Part shown: positions 3,002-18,944 of the stretch, piece after piece
How the letters are laid out: every line of letters begins with the position of its first letter
How positions within the stretch are numbered: position 1 is the first letter of the stretch
From: Rheinheimera hassiensis
GTDB lineage: Bacteria > Pseudomonadota > Gammaproteobacteria > Enterobacterales > Alteromonadaceae
Length of the DNA: 64,000 nucleotides
Assembly (NCBI RefSeq): GCF_022436675.1
Contig: NZ_JAKUJZ010000006.1
Location: 177,546 to 241,545, forward strand
Reading direction: 5' to 3'
Notes under the pieces: model-generated
Seen by the model: only the letters and a program-made list of their open reading frames with translations
Told to the model about the DNA's origin: nothing
Databases searched by the model: none
Program-made: the position numbers and the translations under genes

Positions 3002-3586
3002 TTACTCGCCGGATTTTGCCGCAGGTTCTGCGCTAGCGTTTGCAGCCAGCATTTTTTCCAGCTCGGCAATAAAGGTTTTATCGTCTGGCGCAGTGCGGCT
3101 ACCAAAATGTTTTACTGTTTGCTCATCACTGCTTACCAGATACTTATTAAAATTCCAGCTTGGTGACTCACCGGTTCTGGCAATCAGCGCTTTAAATACC
3201 GGGTTAGCGTCGTCGCCTTTTACCTTAGAGCTGGCAAACATCGGAAATTTAACGCCGTAAGTTAAGTAACACACCTCTGCCGTTTTTTCGGCATCGTCAT
3301 ATTCCTGCATAAAACTGTCTGACGGAAACCCCAGTATCACTAAACCTTTGTCCTGATACTTTTGGTGTAAAGCCTCCAGGCCTTCGAACTGCTTGGTAAA
3401 ACCACATTTACTTGCTGTGTTAACCACCAGCAGGGTTTTACCTTTGTAGCTGTCACATAAATCTACGCTTTCACGCGTGTTTAACTGCTGCATAGAATGG
3501 CCAAGAATTTCACCACACTGGTTAGCCATTGCCGGCATAGCCAGTAAACCGGCTACCAGAGTGGCCGCGCTTAATAAGGTTTTCAT
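3002..3586 (-). CDS. Glutathione peroxidase family protein, exported
   Basis: Thioredoxin-fold peroxidase of 194 residues with a signal peptide (residues 1-22, cut after AMA), so the product acts in the periplasm. The peroxidatic cysteine is C61 in NTASKCGFTKQ, and the downstream Trp-Asn pair of the family is present (SWNFNKYLV, W144 and N145). The usual FPCNQF motif, which supplies the tetrad glutamine, reads FPSDSF (87-92), so Cys, Asn and Gln are all replaced. The enzyme may therefore use a different resolving thiol or have reduced activity. It is a single gene, convergent with rnhA. The reductant is likely a thioredoxin-like protein rather than glutathione, by analogy with bacterial relatives (inference). 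Confidence 0.85.
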   Translation of the reverse strand: MKTLLSAATLVAGLLAMPAMANQCGEILGHSMQQLNTRESVDLCDSYKGKTLLVVNTASKCGFTKQFEGLEALHQKYQDKGLVILGFPSDSFMQEYDDAEKTAEVCYLTYGVKFPMFASSKVKGDDANPVFKALIARTGESPSWNFNKYLVSSDEQTVKHFGSRTAPDDKTFIAELEKMLAANASAEPAAKSGE

Positions 3587-3670: not shown

Positions 3671-5716
3671 CTAAAACCGGTAGGCCAGTTTAAATCTGGC
3701 TGTGCGTGGTTCCAGCGGGTGCGTATGCCTGTCTTCTATACCTTCTGCCGGCTCACCGGGTAAACGCGAGGCATAAAAATAGTCAATGTCGCTGTTGTTA
3801 CTGTCAAAGATATTCAGTAATTCCAGCGTCAACTGCCAGCGCTGCCATTCATAGCGGTAACCGGCATTTACTGTGGTGGTTGCCGCTGAGCGCTGCTGGT
3901 TGAAGCTATCTAACGTACGTTTACCAAAATGGCGTAAACGCAAACTCAGCTGCCACGGGTTATCGGCTTTGTAGATGAGCCCCATGCTTAGTACCAGCGG
4001 CAAGGCACCATCAATGTAGTTACCCTCGTCGGCTGCCGCCTGGGTAAAACGCGAGCGGGTTAATGCCAGTTCGGCATCAAGGCTCCAGTTGCTGTTAAAC
4101 CAATAATAAGCTGCAACTTCAACGCCATAGCGTTTGGATGCACGGCTTGGCTCATTGGTACCGGCATCACCAACATACAACAATTCAGAGTCCATATTCA
4201 GATACCAAAGCGCAGCCGAGATATTAAACGCTGTGTAGTCAAAAAACCGCAGCCCAAGCTCGGCGCCATTGCTGCGTACCAGCAGATCAACCGGTGCTAC
4301 GCTATCACCGCTTTGCGGATCAATAACGGTAGTGGCCCCACGGGCATCATTAGAATGAAAACCCTGGCCAGCATTAAAATACGCCTGCCAGTTAGCCGCA
4401 AACTGATAGCTCAGGCCGGCTTTTAATGAGGCAATACCTTCGGTTGCCTCGCCACTGTTTGCCGCCAGATCGCTGTTAACATCGACGCTGAAATAATCGT
4501 AACGCAGGCCAAGATGAGCGTTCCAATCGCTGTTAAGCTGCATGGTACTTTGGCTAAACAGCGCCGCAGAGCCCTGTTGCACGGCGTCCTGGCGCACCGT
4601 GCTTAAACGCTGGCGCTGGCGGGTGTTATACAGGCCCACTTCGCCAATGTCGTCATAGCGTAATTGCACGCCCACCACATGCTCAACGGCAAACTCACCC
4701 AGCTGATTGTGCCAGTGCCGGCTAAGCTCGCCTCCATAGATCCAGCGCTCATCGACCTGTTCAAATTGATCACCGTTTAGCGGGTCGTTTAAGAAGTAGG
4801 TAAAATTGGACCATAAATCCAGCTCGGTTTGAATGGCATAAGCATTCCATTGCCAGGCGTCGCTGTACCAGCTGGCAGAAACGCTGTTGCGGCTGCTTTT
4901 GCCACCAACACTGGTATCAAGCGAGCCGAAGGCGTCAATCAACCCCTGGCTGACTGCTCGTTGTGGGATCTGATCAGCTGCATTCCAGCTGTTGTCGTAT
5001 GCCATAAACGTTAAGGCAAACTGGCCACTGCCCAGCGGTTTGCTGTAACGCGCCAGCAGGTTTAATTTATCCACATCTTCAGCTATATCGGTCCAGGGGC
5101 CATCGTATTGCTGCAACTCACCGGCCAGCAGTACATCGGCCTTGCCCTGCTTTACATTGCCCTTTACCAGCAGGCGTTGGTAGTTATCCATACCAAAGGT
5201 TAATTCTGCCTCGTTGCGGGTGCGGTTTTGCATACCAAAACGAGCCACACCGGCGGCAGAAAAATCACCACTGTTGGCATGATAAGCACCTTTTTGATAG
5301 TCAATTTGTGATACCAGCTCAGGTATTAAAAAACTTAAATCGGTGTAGCCCTGGCCATGACCGTGGCTGCGCATATTTACCGGCATACCATCCACGTAGC
5401 TGGCAAAATCAGTGCCGTGATCAAGGTTAAAACCACGCAGAAAATACTGATTAGCCTTGCCGCTGCCGCTGTGCTGGGTAACCACCATGCCGGGAATAAA
5501 CTCCAGGATCTCGCCACCGCGCAGTAAGGGCCGGTCGGCAATTTCGGCATTGCCCACTACGCCCTCTGAGGCCGAACTGGCCAAACCCAGCAAGTCGGTT
5601 TGCCGGCCTTTTACACTAATTTGCTCCAGTATATGCGCTGATAAGGGGTCAGCGACAACCTGTGCCGGAGCAAGTAATATTGCTGTACAAGCAGCAAGAT
5701 AACGATAAACAGCCAT
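3671..5716 (-). CDS. TonB-dependent outer membrane receptor of the ECF/DUF4331 operon
   Basis: A 681-residue receptor. A signal peptide (about 1-22) is followed by a plug domain (about 30-150) with typical signatures (FLRGFNLDHGTDFASYVDG, then the IDYQKGAYHANSGDFSAAG stretch), then a 22-strand-type barrel ending in the C-terminal Phe of FKLAYRF that outer-membrane assembly recognises. The plug has a His/Gly-rich patch (RSHGHGQGY) that could bind a metal; this is inference. It is the last gene of a five-gene co-directional set, 9 bases after the HupE-like gene, with a start preceded by AAGGAAT. No N-terminal signalling domain of the FecA type is visible, so it is probably not the signal sensor for the sigma factor. 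Substrate unknown. Confidence 0.88.
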   Translation of the reverse strand: MAVYRYLAACTAILLAPAQVVADPLSAHILEQISVKGRQTDLLGLASSASEGVVGNAEIADRPLLRGGEILEFIPGMVVTQHSGSGKANQYFLRGFNLDHGTDFASYVDGMPVNMRSHGHGQGYTDLSFLIPELVSQIDYQKGAYHANSGDFSAAGVARFGMQNRTRNEAELTFGMDNYQRLLVKGNVKQGKADVLLAGELQQYDGPWTDIAEDVDKLNLLARYSKPLGSGQFALTFMAYDNSWNAADQIPQRAVSQGLIDAFGSLDTSVGGKSSRNSVSASWYSDAWQWNAYAIQTELDLWSNFTYFLNDPLNGDQFEQVDERWIYGGELSRHWHNQLGEFAVEHVVGVQLRYDDIGEVGLYNTRQRQRLSTVRQDAVQQGSAALFSQSTMQLNSDWNAHLGLRYDYFSVDVNSDLAANSGEATEGIASLKAGLSYQFAANWQAYFNAGQGFHSNDARGATTVIDPQSGDSVAPVDLLVRSNGAELGLRFFDYTAFNISAALWYLNMDSELLYVGDAGTNEPSRASKRYGVEVAAYYWFNSNWSLDAELALTRSRFTQAAADEGNYIDGALPLVLSMGLIYKADNPWQLSLRLRHFGKRTLDSFNQQRSAATTTVNAGYRYEWQRWQLTLELLNIFDSNNSDIDYFYASRLPGEPAEGIEDRHTHPLEPRTARFKLAYRF

Positions 5717-5725
5717 GTGTATTCC

Positions 5726-6238
5726 TTAATGCGATAAAAGTGCCGGGTAAAGCGGGCTTGTCGGCGATAATACAGCGTTAGCCTTATTAGGTGGTAGTTG
5801 CCAGGATAACAACAACTTATGGCTATGCTGGCTGTCAAACAGCGCGGTGTAACTTAGCTGCCAGCGCTCAGGGCTGCTGCAACGTACCTGTAGCGGCAAC
5901 AGCAAAAACATATCCTGTTGCATACGCTGCGCCAACCAATCAGTAGCTACAGTATTAATATCGCAAGCCCCCGCGACACTGCTAAAACGCAAACGCAGGC
6001 GGATATAATCTTGTAACTGTGGTTCACTGTCTAACACCTGCTGCCAACTTACCTGATGGCTGTCTTTGGCCTGAATAAGGCCGGCTTGTGCTAAATCGTG
6101 TAATGCCACTTTCCAGAGTAAAACAGGTTGCCCCTGCTGCTCAGTAACGTCCATATAAGCGGTACTGAATTTATGTGCTTGCGCGGTAGCCGCAAAACAC
6201 AGCGTAAAGATCACCAACATCTGTGACAGAGCCCTCAT
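5726..6238 (-). CDS. Free-standing HupE/UreJ-type N-terminal periplasmic domain
   Basis: A 170-residue exported protein with a signal peptide (1-21, cut before HKFSTAY). The body resembles the periplasmic domain that precedes the membrane helices of HupE/UreJ_2 proteins: the AHK start, the segment LLWKVALHDLAQAGLI, the segment QVSWQQVLDSEPQLQDYIRL, two cysteines (GACDI and VRCSS) and the SYTALFDSQHSHKLLL end. Full-length HupE-like proteins continue into several membrane helices; this one stops 23 residues after that motif and the next gene is the TonB receptor. Its ATG overlaps the TPR gene stop (ATGA). HupE proteins are linked to nickel or cobalt uptake, but whether that applies to a lone N-domain is unknown. 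The family assignment is from pattern memory. Confidence 0.6.
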   Translation of the reverse strand: MRALSQMLVIFTLCFAATAQAHKFSTAYMDVTEQQGQPVLLWKVALHDLAQAGLIQAKDSHQVSWQQVLDSEPQLQDYIRLRLRFSSVAGACDINTVATDWLAQRMQQDMFLLLPLQVRCSSPERWQLSYTALFDSQHSHKLLLSWQLPPNKANAVLSPTSPLYPALLSH

Positions 6239-7308
6239 TCACTTACTCCTGATTGCTGCTCGACGTTGTGCCGGCTTAGCTGCAATAGATATTCATCATC
6301 CGGCTCTTTTGCTGTTTGATAGTTAAGCTCTGCCCAGTGCAGCGCCGAAGCGGCATCCGGTGAAACATGCAAAAAATAGTGGACTAAATCTGCGGCATGT
6401 TCAGTATCACCGCGCAACAAACGCAGTTGCATGCGCTGATGCAGTTGTTCTGTAAACACCGGCGCTTTTGCCAGTTGGCGCTCGGCCCGGGCTAAACGCA
6501 GCAGCAGGCTGTCTGCCAGGGCATTATCCGACGCCAGAGCGTTAAGTTGTTGATACACCTGCTCGCCCTGCCCCAGTGCCAGGCTTAAATCGGCCCATTT
6601 TAACCATAAACTGGTAGGAGCCTGAGCCAGCACCGGTGTTAACCATTGTTTTGCTGTCGCTATCAGGCCAAGCTGCTCGGCCTGTTCGGCCAAAATGCCG
6701 CGTAACCAGATATCCAGCTCTGCCGGTAAGCTTTGCTGGCGCTGCCACAATTGCTGCAGTGCAGCGTAACTTTGCTGCCAGTTACCGCGCCGGCCGGCTA
6801 CTTCATAGCTGCACACGCTGAATAAAAACAAATCCTGTTGCCATAAACGGCCGCAAGCTTGCTGTGCGCTGTCCGGTTGATGCAATGCCAGATGCACCCT
6901 GGCCGTCGTTAAACTGGCCTGAATATGTTGCGGTTGCTGCGCCAGTACCCGGCTTAAGGTTTGCAGCGCCGCGGTAAACTGATGTTGTTGCTGCTGAATA
7001 TCAGCCTGCAGCAGCAAATACGACAAGCTTTGGCGACTGTCATCACTAACCTGGTTTAATAGCTGCTCGGCCTGATGAAACCAGTCATCAAAGCCCGGGC
7101 GACGCGCACCGGATAAATAAAGCTGTGCCAGCTGCAAGCGCTGCTTGTCATCCGGCTTACGCTGCAAAGCTTGCTGCAGTTGTTGCATGTCGGGGGTAAG
7201 TGACAGCACGCTGTCTAACGCCAGTTGCTGTGAGGCGTCGGGTTTAAATTCGGTTGCACCGGCGACAGACCAGCACAGCGCAAAAATAATACTTAATTTC
7301 TTAAACAT
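6235..7308 (-). CDS. Exported TPR-like solenoid protein
   Basis: A 357-residue protein with a signal peptide (MFKKLSIIFALCWSVAGA) followed by helical repeats rich in Gln, Leu and Ala, such as QRLQLAQLYLSGARRPGFDDW, LLLQADIQQQQHQFTAALQTL and AADLVHYFLHVSPDAASALHWAELN. These fit tetratricopeptide repeats and give a periplasmic protein-binding scaffold. The ATG at 7308 has GGGGTG eight bases upstream; an upstream TTG would add four residues and spoil the signal peptide. The stop overlaps the next start by four bases. In this operon it probably brings together partners such as the DUF4331 protein and the HupE-like protein (inference). Confidence 0.75.
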   Translation of the reverse strand: MFKKLSIIFALCWSVAGATEFKPDASQQLALDSVLSLTPDMQQLQQALQRKPDDKQRLQLAQLYLSGARRPGFDDWFHQAEQLLNQVSDDSRQSLSYLLLQADIQQQQHQFTAALQTLSRVLAQQPQHIQASLTTARVHLALHQPDSAQQACGRLWQQDLFLFSVCSYEVAGRRGNWQQSYAALQQLWQRQQSLPAELDIWLRGILAEQAEQLGLIATAKQWLTPVLAQAPTSLWLKWADLSLALGQGEQVYQQLNALASDNALADSLLLRLARAERQLAKAPVFTEQLHQRMQLRLLRGDTEHAADLVHYFLHVSPDAASALHWAELNYQTAKEPDDEYLLQLSRHNVEQQSGVSE

Positions 7309-7359
7309 AAAGCACCCCAAATAAAGAGCGGAGCCACTATATGGCCCCGCTGTAGGTTG

Positions 7360-7848
7360 CTACTGACTGCTGAGTAAATCAGCGTAGTCGGCTTCGCTTG
7401 TCGCATCCTGGGTAAAGTCCCGGCCGTTTAATGGCAAAGCTGGCGCTTGTTCGTCCTGATTAAACGCTGTCCGGCTATAGGTTAAAAACGACACTACCGC
7501 CACCGCGACATCAATTGTCACTTCGCCAGTGGTTGTTAACTCACCGTCGGATACTGCGACCATAAAGCTGTCGCTGCCCGTAAACTCCGTTGCGGGTGTG
7601 TAGGTAAAGTTGCCATCTGTAGCCAGTGTCAGGTTGCCGCTTTGCGGCGGGACCGTAACCGTGAACAACAAGCTGTCACCGTTTTTATCTGTGGCACTTA
7701 GCCTGTCCATCACCACAACACCGGTTTCAGTCATAAAGCTGTTGGCACCAAATTTGGGGGCAACATTGGGTTTGTCATTGTTACTGCCATTACAGCCACT
7801 GAGCACTGCTATACCGGCAACCGCAAATAGGATCGCTAACGTTTTCAT
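7360..7848 (-). CDS. Small lipoprotein with one Ig/cadherin-like (tandem-95) domain
   Basis: A 162-residue protein with a lipoprotein signal ending in the lipobox VLSGC (C19), so it is lipid-anchored. Residues 30-118 carry one beta-sandwich repeat of the tandem-95/cadherin kind: SATDKNGDSLLFTV, then GNLTLATDGNFTYTPATEFTGSDSF split over several strands, then VAVSDGELTTTG. The C-terminal 40 residues are unusual (RTAFNQDEQAPALPLNGRDF, then TQDATSEADYADLL) and may be a contact segment. It is placed 10 bases after the DUF4331 gene and is co-transcribed with it. No enzymatic motif is seen. Confidence 0.7.
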   Translation of the reverse strand: MKTLAILFAVAGIAVLSGCNGSNNDKPNVAPKFGANSFMTETGVVVMDRLSATDKNGDSLLFTVTVPPQSGNLTLATDGNFTYTPATEFTGSDSFMVAVSDGELTTTGEVTIDVAVAVVSFLTYSRTAFNQDEQAPALPLNGRDFTQDATSEADYADLLSSQ

Positions 7849-7858
7849 ATGCCGCTCC

Positions 7859-9442
7859 TTAGTTAGCTGAGCCCGGTAATGGGGTAAGCAGGTATGGGAA
7901 AGAGGTATCGAGCATGGCAGCGCTTAACGGTGCGCCATCTGTGAATGGCACATTACCGACCGGTGCATCTTCCGGCGCACAGTAGCCCAGATTGGTGGGT
8001 GTGCCGTTTACCGGAATATCATGACATAAGGCCCCCATTACCACACGCAAAGCGATATCGACTACATCATCACCCGGGCGGCGGCCATTGGGGAAACCGG
8101 CTAAGTCATCACCTGCTACACCAAACGCAGATTGCATCTCAGCTGGTGTTGCCGCAATGGCGGTATTTAACCGCAGCATTTCAGACGGGGTAACCGTAGA
8201 TAGTTGGTTAACACCGGCTACACCGGTCAAAAACGCGTTAACCAGATCTAAACGTGGAAAATTAGACGGCGCTAAATCGGCGATATTGGTGCCTAATGTA
8301 GTGTTAACCGCATCACGGAACAAAATGTTTAACAACGCCGGTAAGCTTGGATGGGTAACGTAATCGGCAAACTGGCCGTCATCAGCAGGTTTGCTGCTGT
8401 TAAACTTATCCTTATCTGCCAAACCTATCACTAACTCATTAACCAGCGGGTTACTTAAACGCGATACCTGCACTAAAGCACCACCATTAACCTCTGGCCG
8501 GGCAAAGTTAGCATTGGGGTTTAAAATACGCGCTTGTGGCAAACTTGCCGTGGTCCAGGCACCGATAACACCATTGCCGCTGCCGGTAACACAGGTTTTT
8601 GGTACTTCTATTGCCAGCGAAGTCACGTTTTTATCAGCCAGATCGTCATTGGCGCTGCTTTGTGTAATGCCGCCGGGGAAACCAGCACCATCTCCGGCGC
8701 CTGGTGCACTGTCGCCCTCAACCGGAACATAATTGACCAAATCAAAGGTCTTACCCAGATTTACCACAAAGGCATCTTTACGCTGGCCGACAAAAACCCG
8801 TGCCATGGCATCGCACCCGGGCAAAGCGACCTGATACACGTATTGATCGGCATAGGCCTGGTAAGCAGCAGCACTGCTAAAGGTTTTGGTGCCGATAAAG
8901 TCATACGGTTTAGTAAAGGTCATAGCGCCATCTGAGGGCATCAGCATATTGCTGCTACCTGCCGCAGCGACCTCTAGGGTGTAATCTTCAAAAAAATTTA
9001 ACGCTGCTGTATTGCCCGCGGCTACACCACCGACATTTTTCAGTGGTACCGCCACCATTTTCTGATTGCCCTCGGGGCCTATCGGTAATTTAACCCCAGC
9101 GCCCTCATTGGTCAGGGTGTTATTGAAGCGAAAGTTGAAGCTCAGATCAGGCTGCGCATCACCGTCGTTATCAATGTGAATGCTGTACACTGCTGCTGGG
9201 TCCATGGCGAAATAGTTGGGCCCACCATAGGCATCTTGCAGCGGAATATAATTTGCTATCAGCGTAACGTAGGCTTCGCGGCCGGGTTCATAGCTGTTAA
9301 ACAGATAAAAGTCAGACGCATCTACTGTTGGCATTCGGGTAATATTTGGTGCTTCACGGTGGCTGGAGGCCTGTACACTGCTTAGCAGGCTAAGCGTGGT
9401 AAGCGCTGCGGTTACAGCAAAAAAAGTGGCTGTGCGTTTCAT
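7859..9442 (-). CDS. DUF4331 domain exported protein
   Basis: A 527-residue protein with a signal peptide (cut near VQA, residue 25). The DUF4331 opening is recognisable: SSHREAPNITRMPTVDASDFYLF, followed by IHIDNDGDAQPDLSFNFRF, an EF-hand-like acidic loop that could bind calcium. A second conserved stretch near residue 300 (LPQARILNPNANF) precedes NPLVNELVIGLADKDKFN, and the C-terminal third has GRRPGDDVVDIALRVV. The family has no established biochemical role. The gene has its own promoter carrying the ECF motif and is separated from the anti-sigma gene by a strong terminator. It heads a five-gene operon ending in the TonB receptor, so it is probably an abundant exported component of that system. 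Confidence 0.85.
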   Translation of the reverse strand: MKRTATFFAVTAALTTLSLLSSVQASSHREAPNITRMPTVDASDFYLFNSYEPGREAYVTLIANYIPLQDAYGGPNYFAMDPAAVYSIHIDNDGDAQPDLSFNFRFNNTLTNEGAGVKLPIGPEGNQKMVAVPLKNVGGVAAGNTAALNFFEDYTLEVAAAGSSNMLMPSDGAMTFTKPYDFIGTKTFSSAAAYQAYADQYVYQVALPGCDAMARVFVGQRKDAFVVNLGKTFDLVNYVPVEGDSAPGAGDGAGFPGGITQSSANDDLADKNVTSLAIEVPKTCVTGSGNGVIGAWTTASLPQARILNPNANFARPEVNGGALVQVSRLSNPLVNELVIGLADKDKFNSSKPADDGQFADYVTHPSLPALLNILFRDAVNTTLGTNIADLAPSNFPRLDLVNAFLTGVAGVNQLSTVTPSEMLRLNTAIAATPAEMQSAFGVAGDDLAGFPNGRRPGDDVVDIALRVVMGALCHDIPVNGTPTNLGYCAPEDAPVGNVPFTDGAPLSAAMLDTSFPYLLTPLPGSAN

Positions 9443-9475
9443 GTTTTTAGTCCCATTGATTTAAGTTGCGACCAA

Positions 9476-9504
9476 GAAACGACTGACTCAGATGATTGGA
9501 TGCA
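9476..9504 (-). promoter_or_regulatory. ECF sigma-type promoter of the DUF4331 operon
   Basis: On the minus strand TGCATC (9499-9504) and CGTTTC (9476-9481) are 17 bases apart, within the longer context ACTGCATC ... GTCGTTTC. The sigma gene has the same pair (ACTGCATC ... GTCGTAAC) at the same spacing. The expected transcript start is about 26 bases before the ATG. The -10 region is unlike a sigma-70 box and typical of group IV sigma factors. Confidence 0.65.
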
Positions 9505-9514
9505 GTGAAATGCA

Positions 9515-9544
9515 AAAAAATAAAAAAACCGCCGCAGCGGTTTT
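9515..9544 (-). terminator. Rho-independent terminator after the anti-sigma gene
   Basis: Stem AAAACCGC (9525-9532) with GCGGTTTT (9537-9544) around a CGCA loop. On the minus strand it is followed by a long T-tract (TTTTTTTATTTTTTT). It isolates the sigma/anti-sigma transcript from the DUF4331 operon. Confidence 0.85.
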
Positions 9545-9570
9545 AAACGGGGTTGGGTTTGTTCAGCGCC

Positions 9571-10248
9571 TTACAGCGTAACAATCTCTGCAGTAAATAA
9601 TACCGGGCCGCTTGGCGCACCGGTAATGGAGCCGCCAATCGGTTCCAGGCTTACCGCTAAAGCGGCTATCTGAATACCTTCAGCTTCAACCGGCCAGCCC
9701 AAAGTGCGTTCGCCCTGTTGCGGCAATAACCCTAACGAAATTGGCGCCTGACCATTAGCAGGTAACATCCATAGCTCATAATCATGCTGCGCATCATCTG
9801 TTACCGCCGCGGTAGATTTAACCCTTAAGGTGTTTTCCGCTTTGCTTACCAGCCACCAGGCTTTAGCGTCACTGGTTTGAATGACGGCTATGTCCTGCGA
9901 AACAGGGCTTAGCAACAAGGGCCGCAACATAATGACGGCCAGCAATAATGAAGCCGCAGTAGCCAGCGCCAGCCAGTATTTACCGGTTCTGGCAGGTGCT
10001 ACCGGCGCTGTGGCAGCCGTCCAGCCTAAACGTTGCCGAATACGCTGCCATACCGCTTCATCGGGCGCCGTTGCCGGTAAACTTTCGGCCAGCGGGTTTA
10101 GATGTTGCTCCCAGCGCCACACCGTCTGGCGCGCACTTGGCTGCTGCATCATCAGCCGCTGAAATCGTTTACGGGCTGCGCCTTTCATAGCACCGAGAAT
10201 AAAATCGACCGCCAGCGCGTCCAATAACTCCTGTTGCTGATACTTCAT
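9571..10248 (-). CDS. Membrane anti-sigma factor, RskA type
   Basis: A 225-residue single-pass protein. The N-terminal part (about 1-80) would bind the sigma factor in the cytoplasm. One membrane helix lies at about 91-112 (YWLALATAASLLLAVIML). The outer domain has the RskA/anti-sigma-K signature: DYELWMLPANGQAPISLG, GLLPQQGERTLGWP, then ALAVSLEPIGGSITGAPSGP. No zinc-binding HxxxCxxC is present. The start overlaps the sigma stop by four bases, giving coupled, stoichiometric production. Release is expected by regulated proteolysis in response to an envelope signal, as for other RskA proteins; the signal is unknown. Confidence 0.88.
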   Translation of the reverse strand: MKYQQQELLDALAVDFILGAMKGAARKRFQRLMMQQPSARQTVWRWEQHLNPLAESLPATAPDEAVWQRIRQRLGWTAATAPVAPARTGKYWLALATAASLLLAVIMLRPLLLSPVSQDIAVIQTSDAKAWWLVSKAENTLRVKSTAAVTDDAQHDYELWMLPANGQAPISLGLLPQQGERTLGWPVEAEGIQIAALAVSLEPIGGSITGAPSGPVLFTAEIVTL

Positions 10249-10799
10249 GCTTCAAGACACCTTTTCAATTGGGTTAAACCACGGCGGATCCAGCTTTTCA
10301 CAGTACCCAGTGCAGAGCCGGTATGTTCAGTAATTTCCTGATGGCTCAGTCCGTTAAAATAGGCCAACTGGATTGACTGACGGTGCTCGTCACTCAAGCC
10401 CTGCATGCAATCATCCAGTTTCACCTTTTCACGAACCAAGCCTATTGCCTCCCCCGGCTGCACCTCATCTAAGCTTTGGTCGTTGTCCGGCTCTGAGATA
10501 TCAAGATGTTCTGCCTTAACCCGGCGTGATTTTAGCAAGTCCAGTGCGCGGTAGCGGGTAATGCTGATCATCCAGCTCATTACGCTGCCTTTTTCGGCAT
10601 GGTAATCGGCCGCGTTGTGCCAGATGCGTACATACGCATCCTGCAACACATCCTCAGCCCAGTCTCTGCGCCTGAGCAAATGCAAGCTGACAGAAAATAA
10701 CTTACCTGATGTGGCCTGATATAACTGTTCAAATGCCGGTTTATTTCCCTGAGCCGCAGCGTACAGCCATTGCAGCAATTGTTGTTGTGATTGTTCCAT
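10245..10799 (-). CDS. ECF (group IV) RNA polymerase sigma factor, SigK-like
   Basis: A 184-residue sigma factor with only regions 2 and 4. Region 2 carries DWAEDVLQDAYVRIWHNA and SWMISITRYRALDLLKSRR; region 4 carries GLSHQEITEHTGSALGTVK followed by SWIRRGLTQLKRCL, a helix-turn-helix. The ATG at 10799 is supported by AGGA ten bases upstream; a TTG two codons earlier is the only longer start. Pairing with an RskA-type anti-sigma places it in the SigK-like group. Its own promoter shares the ECF motif with the DUF4331 operon, so it most likely activates itself and that operon. Confidence 0.92.
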   Translation of the reverse strand: MEQSQQQLLQWLYAAAQGNKPAFEQLYQATSGKLFSVSLHLLRRRDWAEDVLQDAYVRIWHNAADYHAEKGSVMSWMISITRYRALDLLKSRRVKAEHLDISEPDNDQSLDEVQPGEAIGLVREKVKLDDCMQGLSDEHRQSIQLAYFNGLSHQEITEHTGSALGTVKSWIRRGLTQLKRCLEA

Positions 10800-10831
10800 T
10801 TGCAATCCTGTTAAGTTAACTCTCAGTTATC

Positions 10832-10860
10832 GTTACGACACACTGCGCAATTCAGATGCA
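10832..10860 (-). promoter_or_regulatory. Autoregulatory ECF promoter of the sigma gene
   Basis: Minus strand TGCATC (10855-10860), 17 bases, then CGTAAC (10832-10837), in the wider context ACTGCATC ... GTCGTAAC. It matches the DUF4331 promoter at 9476-9504 in both boxes and spacing. The predicted start is about 25 bases before the sigma ATG. Confidence 0.65.
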
Positions 10861-10978: not shown

Positions 10979-12019
10979 ATGCGCATTTGTTTTTTAATGT
11001 ACCCGTGGGACAAAGTTTATCCAGACGGCGACAGTACCATTCGGATGATCCACGAAGCGGTAAGCCGCGGCCATACGGTAGCCATTACCCATGCCACTAA
11101 CTTAACTGTGCGGGATAGCATCGCCCAGGCGTTTTGCAAAGTGTTTGTTAAAGGCCAGAAAGTATCCAGTAATATTGCCAGTTTTTATCGCAATGCGCAG
11201 TTTAACCAGCAAAAGCTGCCGCTGGCGGCCTTTGATGCCATTTTTATCCGGTTAAACCCGCCGCTGGACCCGATAGCGCTTAATTTTCTTGATTCAGTGC
11301 GCGAAGATACCTTTATTATGAATGACTTAGATGGTGTACGGATTGCCAATAATAAGATGTACACCGCGTCCTTGCACGACCCGGATAACGAGTTTATTCC
11401 GGTGACTCATGTATCAAAAAACAAGGACTATCTGGCACGGGTACTGGCAGAATCGCCCAACGATAAGATGATTTTAAAACCTTTGAACGGCTATGGTGGC
11501 AAAGGTGTCATTCTGCTGGAGAAATCTGCCGCACAAAGCGCCCGCTCTCTGCTGGATTTTTATATCGGCGATACCGAGCGCGGCAACTACGTTATTTTGC
11601 AGGAATATGTTGAAGGCGCTGAGCTGGGTGATATCCGTATTCTAATGCTAAACGGTAAACCTATCGGTGCCATGCGCCGTATTCCGCCGGCAGATGATGT
11701 GCGCTCTAACGTACATGCCGGCGGCAGCGTAGTTAAACACCAACTGACCGAACAGGAAAAACGCTTGTGTACGCATATAGGCCCGCGCCTTGCCCGCGAC
11801 GGTTTATTTTTTGCCGGCATCGATGTCATTAACGGAAAATTGATTGAAGTAAACGTAATGAGCCCTGGCGGCATAGCACGGATTAACCGGTTAAATAGCG
11901 TGCGCCTGCAAGAGAAAGTTATTGATTTTATTGAGCATATGGTAAATAGCAAAACCCAATTATCACCACGTAAGCAGGTATTCAGGCCACTGCTGAGTGA
12001 AGCTGAAACCGTTATTTGA
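10979..12019 (+). CDS. Glutathione synthetase-like ATP-grasp ligase
   Basis: A 346-residue ATP-grasp enzyme with the fold order of bacterial GshB: an N-terminal domain (1-120) with the AIFIRLNPPLDPIALNF segment, a nucleotide-binding segment (MILKPLNGYGGKGVILL), the substrate loop region (GAELGDIRILMLNGKPIGAM, RRIPPADDVRSNVHAGG) and the metal-binding end (FAGIDVINGKLIEVNVMSPG). E. coli GshB has the same landmarks (ILKPLDGMGG, ARIPQGGETRGNLAAGG, EINVTSP), but overall identity looks modest and the final loop differs (SPGGIARIN against SPTCIREIE). It may be a second GshB or a ligase with a related substrate. AAGGA sits 8 bases before the ATG. It is divergent from the ECF sigma gene. Confidence 0.75.
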   Translation: MRICFLMYPWDKVYPDGDSTIRMIHEAVSRGHTVAITHATNLTVRDSIAQAFCKVFVKGQKVSSNIASFYRNAQFNQQKLPLAAFDAIFIRLNPPLDPIALNFLDSVREDTFIMNDLDGVRIANNKMYTASLHDPDNEFIPVTHVSKNKDYLARVLAESPNDKMILKPLNGYGGKGVILLEKSAAQSARSLLDFYIGDTERGNYVILQEYVEGAELGDIRILMLNGKPIGAMRRIPPADDVRSNVHAGGSVVKHQLTEQEKRLCTHIGPRLARDGLFFAGIDVINGKLIEVNVMSPGGIARINRLNSVRLQEKVIDFIEHMVNSKTQLSPRKQVFRPLLSEAETVI

Positions 12020-18359: not shown

Positions 18360-18944
18360 ATGGCCTTTGAATTACCAGCATTACCTTATGCAAAAGACGC
18401 TTTAGCGCCACACATTTCCGCAGAAACTCTGGAATACCACTACGGCAAACACCACAATACTTACGTGGTAAAACTGAATGGTTTGATTGAAGGCACGCCT
18501 TTTGCCGGTAAATCTCTGGAAGATATCGTTCGTACCTCTGAAGGTGGCATTTTCAACAACGCCGCTCAGGTATGGAACCACACTTTCTACTGGCACTGTT
18601 TATCACCAAACGGTGGTGGCGAGCCAACAGGTGCGTTAGCCGACGCTATTAATGCCAAATGGGGCTCTTTTGCTGCATTTAAAACCGCCTTTAACGACAA
18701 AGCCGTGAACAACTTTGGTTCAAGCTGGACCTGGTTAGTGAAAAAAGCTGACGGCAGCCTGGATATCGTTAACACCAGCAACGCCGCTACGCCATTAACA
18801 GATACCAGCGTAACGCCGGTAATGACTGTAGATTTATGGGAACACGCCTACTACATCGACTACCGTAATGCCCGTCCAACTTACCTGGATGCATTCTGGG
18901 CACTGGTTAACTGGAAATTTGCCAGCGAAAACTTTGCCAAATAA
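18360..18944 (+). CDS. sodB: Superoxide dismutase [Fe]
   Basis: Cytoplasmic iron superoxide dismutase of 194 residues. Metal ligands are the His of [19 protein letters not shown], the His of [10 protein letters not shown], and the Asp and His of [14 protein letters not shown]. The iron form is supported by [28 protein letters not shown] and overall length. A possible weak promoter TTGAGT/TAGTCT with 17-base spacing lies at 18289-18317. ATG follows GGAGAACGAC. Confidence 0.96.

Follow-up and report, generated by a model that had tools for sequence, protein, structure and literature searches.

What does the extracytoplasmic function (ECF) sigma factor encoded in a 64,000-nucleotide stretch of the Rheinheimera hassiensis genome (contig NZ_JAKUJZ010000006.1, positions 177,546 to 241,545; the whole stretch is here called the window) control, and what is the envelope system beside it for? 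On the minus strand of the window the sigma gene is followed, in order, by genes for an anti-sigma factor, an exported protein of the DUF4331 family, a lipoprotein, a TPR protein, a 170-residue protein first described as HupE-like, and a TonB-dependent receptor. The answer that we favour, and consider probable, is that a SigK/RskA-type ECF switch controls both itself and an envelope system for the capture of a transition metal, be it copper, nickel, cobalt or zinc. All positions are in window numbering, and the genome to which the window belongs measures 4.70 Mb.

Two promoter-like elements were read directly:

10832..10860, minus strand: promoter-like element of the sigma gene, TGCATC-N17-CGTAAC
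9476..9504, minus strand: promoter-like element of the DUF4331 operon, TGCATC-N17-CGTTTC

In both, AC precedes TGCATC and GT precedes CGT, and the boxes end 32-33 nucleotides upstream of the ATG at 10799 (sigma) and of the ATG at 9442 (DUF4331). An earlier, sequence-only reading of the window had proposed this pair of boxes at identical spacing, and direct reading bears out both their positions and the spacing. The pair itself stands, but the sixth base of the second box (C) varies among relatives, and the general element is TGCATCYA-N15-CGTWW; at the sigma site of the window (TGCATCTG...) 12/13 positions agree with it. When the window genome was searched for TGCATCYR-N15-CGTWW, three sites were returned, namely these two and one within an open reading frame (ORF), and the reversed control returned none; the two window boxes are more than chance in a genome of 4.70 Mb. 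Looser patterns are much less specific, with 17 matches against 7 in the reversed control for TGCATC-N15..19-CGTWWC, and 7 against 3 for TGCATCYA-N15-CGTWWC with at most one mismatch. A one-mismatch motif at 18865-18893 on the minus strand is probably due to chance; it lies inside an ORF (entry L168) whose start resembles what we take to be an iron superoxide dismutase.

Conservation was measured in the best 80 of 299 confirmed DUF4331 loci, fetched with their flanks, by scoring the best upstream site on the 13 fixed positions of TGCATCYA-N15-CGTWW. Upstream of DUF4331 the element is complete (13/13) in 64 of 79 genes and reaches at least 11/13 in 74; upstream of sigma the corresponding counts are 31 and 52 of 74. 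Control genes of the same loci have no complete element (lipoprotein 0/74, TPR 0/76, anti-sigma 0/75) and hardly ever one of at least 11/13 (0/74, 2/76 and 0/75, respectively). The 12-position pattern of the earlier reading, with spacers of 15-19 and a score of at least 11, gives a similar picture, with 70/80 DUF4331 and 45/75 sigma genes against 1/77 lipoprotein and 0/77 TPR genes. A set of 46 non-redundant regions upstream of DUF4331 shows almost no variation in the boxes and a mostly variable spacer; outside the search pattern, C-A after TGCATC and a T located five bases ahead of the second box are conserved too. TGCATCYA-N15-CGTWW is thus a conserved promoter-like element, kept within the order Alteromonadales ahead of the sigma and DUF4331 orthologues, where its loss would have spoken against the proposed regulon.

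The element also tracks the sigma gene. At 22 DUF4331 loci examined, the 13 with an adjacent sigma gene all score 12-13/13 and the nine without one all score 9-10/13. Ten of the 22 are Kangiella-type: L074 and L093 bear that name, and the remaining eight have a single genus label in common. Two of the ten carry a sigma/RskA pair and both score 13/13, and in the other eight the motif is absent and no RskA_C match above cut-off was found genome-wide, one genome having a sub-cut-off match elsewhere. In Alteromonas confluentis the sigma pair is distant from DUF4331 and adjoins a gene for an NHL-propeller lipoprotein (L203, L060), and the motif stands before the lipoprotein gene as well as before the remote DUF4331 operon. 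Further loci with sigma have a DUF4331 site of 12-13/13 (L130, L134, L147-L149, L157). It could be argued that the boxes are the site of some other regulator and not the promoter of the SigK-like sigma factor, given that their promoter role is predicted by comparison, that Marinobacter-type loci with the sigma gene lack a clear element, and that one element (L136) has no neighbouring sigma gene. We regard this as very improbable, since two boxes at a fixed 17-base spacing stand 32-33 nucleotides before the start, before the sigma gene as well, and since within the order the element occurs only where sigma adjoins DUF4331 (13 of 13 loci against 0 of 9). On this comparison the element is one that belongs to the SigK-like sigma factor in the order and some of its neighbours, not everywhere, and it fades outside the order. 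Autoregulation and control of the DUF4331 operon by the sigma factor, as the sequence-only reading had proposed, are strongly supported by the comparison, although autoregulation is not universal.

The genes of the switch itself are as follows:

10245..10799, minus strand: ECF sigma factor, SigK-like, with sigma70 regions 2 and 4 (PF04542, PF08281) and two conserved cysteines
9571..10248, minus strand: RskA-type membrane anti-sigma factor (PF10099, E-value 1.9e-17), overlapping the sigma gene by 4 bases

For the sigma gene, the ATG at 10799 is favoured over the listed TTG at 10805 because relatives begin MEQE, MDHE or MEHE. The best NCBIfam models of the protein are PRK12537, PRK12514 and SigK, all below their cut-offs, and TIGR02937, the general ECF model, is the only one to pass among the 25 shown; "SigK-like" here refers to the domains, the cysteines and the RskA_C partner, and not to official ECF group models. 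The two cysteines are conserved in 74/74 relatives, at positions 133 and 183 as numbered in L032 rather than in SigK, and the same residues are present in the window sigma factor. The anti-sigma factor has one hydrophobic stretch in 75/75 relatives and in the window protein, which is the sole RskA_C match in the window genome. According to PMC7509140, a disulfide between cysteines 133 and 183 stabilises the complex with RskA and its reduction frees SigK, the cysteine pair marks the ECF18 and ECF19 groups (94% of ECF18, 56% of ECF19), and the activating signal of SigK/RskA-type sigma factors is called unknown. SigK/RskA of Mycobacterium tuberculosis and the ECF18/ECF19 pairs resemble the present pair in sigma regions 2 and 4, two cysteines, an adjacent RskA_C membrane anti-sigma factor and surface-protein targets, but the targets here are DUF4331, a TonB receptor and an anglerase-like protein, joined in relatives by an NHL lipoprotein. 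The FecI/FecR/FecA system is likewise a sigma/anti-sigma pair controlling a TonB receptor; here, however, the anti-sigma factor has RskA_C and no FecR domain, and a profile search of the receptor up to an E-value of 0.1 found only Plug and barrel and no STN signalling domain, so that FecA-type signalling is not indicated.

Further targets were sought in 16 relatives, hand-picked among loci without a TonB gene in the fetched stretch and scanned for the strict motif. The scan gave 70 sites against 23 in the reversed control, of which 22 lie at sigma or DUF4331 genes, 5 at TonB genes, 9 at NHL genes and 34 at others. A single-copy orthologue of the TonB receptor (51-56% identity) is present in 11 of the 16, and the motif at these lone genes is 13/13 in five and 12/13 in two. 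In six further Alteromonas loci the receptor lies directly before the sigma-anti-sigma unit, with a strict motif before the receptor in 6/6, so that the motif precedes the whole TonB-sigma-anti-sigma unit instead of sigma. Combined, receptors outside the DUF4331 operon score 13/13 in 11/17 cases and 12/13 in 2; the window receptor, inside its operon, has no motif of its own (entry L226). An NHL-propeller lipoprotein, in most cases with a collagen-like start, occurs in 9/16 relatives and has the strict motif upstream in 9/9 (L203, L206, L209, L215, L218 and L225 among them); it was not found in the window genome. Two of these motifs lie 235 bases before the called start, and that of L203 falls inside the called ORF, whose start is likely farther down. 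In Alteromonas hispanica intergenic strict motifs were also seen at a galactose-oxidase-like gene (L205:339-2621) and at a gene for a CHRD-domain protein (L189:860-1354).

The operon downstream of the second element contains five genes, separated by 10, 39, -4 and 9 bases when the listed ORF starts are used:

7859..9442, minus strand: exported DUF4331 protein of 527 residues (PF14224, E-value 8.5e-146), ATG at 9442
7360..7848, minus strand: lipoprotein with one cadherin/Ig-like domain (PF17963)
6235..7308, minus strand: exported TPR protein (PF14559), ATG at 7308 internal to the listed ORF
5726..6238, minus strand: free-standing anglerase-like (Ang-1-like) domain of 170 residues, His22 predicted to be N-terminal after signal cleavage, without a HupE permease domain
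3671..5716, minus strand: TonB-dependent outer-membrane receptor (PF07715 and PF00593)

Domain profile search and ORF reading agree with the gene content given earlier. The lipobox is kept in 73/74 relatives of the lipoprotein, and the TPR gene was found in 76/80 loci.

By structural alignment of its model to 9GCE, the product of the fourth of these genes has the fold of the Ang-1 anglerase domain, at 11% identity and with model residue 22 and 9GCE residue 1 as the first aligned pair. The model is an Ig-like beta-sandwich in which three helices separate strands 2 and 3, and it has nine strands of at least three residues against eight described for RbAng-1a. A histidine immediately after the predicted signal cleavage site, placed by the AxA rule only, is invariant in 65/65 proteins. 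In the paper on Ang-1 of HupE/UreJ-2 proteins (RbAng-1a, PDB 9GCE; PMC12537917), anglerases are proposed to serve metal capture and uptake, and DUF4198, IndA-like and PfkB are named as gene neighbours. Binding of copper or nickel at nanomolar affinity counts among the traits that define the Ang-1 domain. The window protein shares with Ang-1 the Ig-like beta-sandwich, the three helices, secretion and the predicted N-terminal histidine; it differs in standing alone without a permease, in lacking the EF-hand-like loop, and in its low identity. HupE_UreJ_2 (PF13795) has no match in this protein or in the window genome, where NicO was not searched. Of the label "HupE-like", then, the anglerase-type domain holds and the HupE membrane domain is absent, and because the fusion to that membrane domain is missing we write "anglerase-like domain" and not anglerase. 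The zinc-binding proteins ZrgA (8F1B) and PA4063 (7BGO) are also among the nearest known systems.

The missing permease is present elsewhere. Among the relatives, 42 carry a long form, in which the anglerase domain is fused to a HupE_UreJ_2 permease, and a TonB gene lies near 21/22 short forms as against 8/42 long forms. In a tree of DUF4331 one Rheinheimera/Arsukibacterium/Alishewanella clade is made up of short forms (21 rows, and one that is untyped), and a further short form appears in one Pseudoalteromonas locus; Pseudidiomarina has a short form of its own, with four proteins. Nine loci in two lineages have, by clustering, a TPR gene and no anglerase gene, and their TPR proteins start with a histidine after a signal-like site in 9/9 cases, a loose pattern met in 11/67 other TPR proteins; no anglerase remnants were seen in the six of these loci that were re-scanned. 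The N-terminal histidine has apparently moved from the anglerase domain onto the TPR protein, as far as sequence can tell. Examples of such TPR starts are L061:12076-13128, L106:12100-13164 and L109:2324-3340. Outside the order, DUF4331-TPR-HupE recurs in Marinobacter, Lichenicola and a comamonad, and on a Streptomyces plasmid DUF4331 and TPR are followed by a protein that starts with a histidine and contains both an EF-like loop and a NicO nickel-transport domain. On that plasmid (L155:6869-15197) two DUF4331 genes flank the TPR gene and the NicO fusion, which has a His-rich loop, and sortase and fasciclin genes follow. One Bacteroidota plasmid has DUF4331-TPR with a TonB gene, and no partner with an N-terminal histidine was seen there. 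The HupE/UreJ and NicO nickel/cobalt permeases are thus carried by relatives of the module in the same slot, unlike the window protein and genome with their lack of a HupE_UreJ_2 match. What we take as the strongest genomic hint at a metal substrate is that this slot is filled by two different families of metal transporters.

Two genes flanking the Rheinheimera locus also bear on how metal might be involved:

3002..3586, minus strand: glutathione-peroxidase-like exported protein (PF00255), after an 84-bp gap behind the operon
10979-12019, plus strand: glutathione synthetase gene, divergent, upstream of the sigma/operon region

The former is possibly read through from the operon, of which its membership is uncertain, and it adjoins the locus in 11 loci of the Rheinheimera/Arsukibacterium group. 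With these neighbours in mind, the system could serve protection from excess metal: the sigma factor would sense metal-caused envelope damage, the anglerase domain and HupE or NicO would sequester or export the metal, and the surface proteins would buffer it outside. Sigma/anti-sigma pairs often respond to stress, and the long His-rich loop of the Streptomyces NicO-type protein is presumably of the kind found in RcnA-like nickel exporters. The co-regulated TonB receptor, however, suggests import, and uptake is for that reason favoured over detoxification; moreover, the window genome has no HupE_UreJ_2 gene for export, and the anglerase paper proposes capture and uptake (PMC12537917). We therefore hold protection to be rather unlikely.

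The DUF4331 protein itself is highly conserved. The window protein scores 486.9 bits against PF14224 (cut-off 27) over positions 1-421, the full profile, and is 98% identical to that of Rheinheimera sp. EpRS3. An alignment of 90 DUF4331 proteins, hand-chosen from 360 listed and 88 down to 34% identical to the window protein, has 77 invariant columns; many of these are polar or charged, and an S-H-R-E-A-P motif directly after the predicted signal peptide is among them. The AlphaFold2 model (predicted local distance difference test score 82.2) mixes strand and helix, with residues 16-36, which hold SHREAP, poorly modelled, and its structure comparison gave weak Ig-like matches. The family has at least 7,998 matches, and full-text literature searches found no paper naming DUF4331 or PF14224. 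On two Rhodobacterales plasmids (L150, L151) DUF4331 has an A24 peptidase gene and type II secretion genes as neighbours, and may there be a secreted substrate. Divergent relatives with other neighbours are hinted at by PF14224 matches near the cut-off that are short or split (L139-L145).

A protein of this kind could belong to an adhesive or matrix surface layer in which metal or calcium binding is structural only. Besides the mixed strand/helix model with its weak Ig-like matches, such a layer would accommodate the Ig/cadherin-like lipoprotein of the operon, the NHL-propeller/collagen-like lipoprotein and the CHRD protein whose genes carry the motif in relatives, the EF-hand-like loops, and the sortase, fasciclin and type II secretion genes beside DUF4331 on the plasmids; it would leave unexplained why a TonB receptor, an anglerase fold and HupE or NicO permeases occur in the same operons, and we think it unlikely. 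Less likely still is that DUF4331 is a metal-dependent enzyme, extracellular or periplasmic, with an organic substrate; the TonB receptor would then import the product, and the anglerase-like protein would load the enzyme's metal. We judge 77 invariant columns in 90 proteins to be more than a pure scaffold needs, and both the receptor in the regulon and the galactose-oxidase-like protein under the motif in A. hispanica would suit an enzyme, but no enzyme fold was recognised in the structure comparison of the model and the operon has no catabolic genes.

The reading as a transition-metal capture system under a SigK/RskA-type switch would work as follows. By analogy with SigK/RskA, the sigma factor would be freed from its membrane anti-sigma partner by a signal at the envelope or when its disulfide is reduced. 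The sigma factor would then read TGCATCYA-N15-CGTWW before its own gene and the DUF4331 operon, a step for which the comparative support is strong. The TonB receptor would carry metal or a metal complex over the outer membrane, and the anglerase-like protein, whose fold and first residue come from a model and alignment, may take up periplasmic metal through its N-terminal histidine. DUF4331, the lipoprotein and the TPR protein, linked by co-regulation and neighbourhood, would be capture partners at the surface or in the periplasm. In many relatives the anglerase-fused HupE_UreJ_2, or in one Streptomyces locus NicO, would move the metal over the inner membrane; the Rheinheimera lineage, without the permease domain, would have to use another inner-membrane route. 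That the five downstream genes form one shared surface system is well supported by their comparison, and metal capture is its most likely role; the earlier suggestion of one surface system, possibly for a metal, has gained from the anglerase fold, the HupE_UreJ_2 or NicO partner and the motif at lone TonB genes.

Several observations weigh against this reading. On the regulatory side, the best site at sigma falls below 11/13 in 22/74 genes, so that autoregulation is not universal, and six Colwellia-type loci lack a good motif upstream of sigma. The Marinobacter-type loci L132, L133 and L135 keep an adjacent divergent SigK-like sigma and RskA beside DUF4331 with a DUF4331 site of 9-11/13, and may use another promoter sequence; L136, conversely, has a 13/13 element and no adjoining sigma. 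Of the strict sites in the 16 relatives, 34/70 lie outside the known targets, most within ORFs, where the reversed control gave 23 sites in all. Two of the 11 lone TonB orthologues lack the motif, and two more are borderline at 11/13, a score that 10 and 14 of 300 shuffles also attain. On the functional side, a plain Foldseek search placed 9GCE fourth by E-value, behind zinc proteins. The long form has an EF-hand-like loop that 21/22 short forms lack, so that metal binding by the window protein may be of another kind or may not occur. At least three lineages are without the permease domain, and because it is absent from the window, inner-membrane uptake there has no assigned protein. The structure comparison gave no clear solved relative or recognised metal site for DUF4331, and its role is for this reason read from its company.

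A broader proposal, which we put forward tentatively, is that DUF4331, TPR and a protein with an N-terminal histidine form a bacterial metal-capture machine, with DUF4331 as the extracellular metal-handling component and, in Alteromonadales and neighbours, with its own SigK/RskA-type regulon that takes in the TonB receptor and in many cases the NHL lipoprotein. Under the same tentative proposal, the histidine protein would be an anglerase domain that stands free or is joined to HupE or to NicO, or else the histidine would sit on the TPR protein. The candidate machine is seen in Pseudomonadota and Actinomycetota, and no description of it was found in full-text literature searches. Overall, an ECF-controlled envelope system is of a known kind, and what is gained is a testable function for DUF4331: a large family of unknown function receives the concrete hypothesis of scarce-metal handling. 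SigK/RskA-type sigma factors gain a compact regulon from Gram-negative bacteria, for which a physiological theme is predicted, and the pattern of presence and absence of sigma and motif, together with the apparent move of the N-terminal histidine, offers natural experiments.

Two hairpins lie between the genes of the locus:

9525..9544, minus strand: terminator-like hairpin with a T tract, between the anti-sigma and DUF4331 genes
7327-7351, minus strand: terminator- or attenuator-like hairpin of 11 pairs, between the lipoprotein and TPR genes

The first had been called a strong terminator that makes two transcripts. The hairpin and its T tract exist (9544-9525), but it is not generally conserved, a hairpin directly before the DUF4331 motif being found in 18/73 relatives against 36/365 shuffles, and terminator-like hairpins are no commoner in the region than in shuffles (10 against a mean of 11.1). 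Because of this, the case for two transcripts rests on the DUF4331 promoter and not on the terminator. The second hairpin is longer than the first and could set a lower level for the TPR, anglerase-like and TonB genes.

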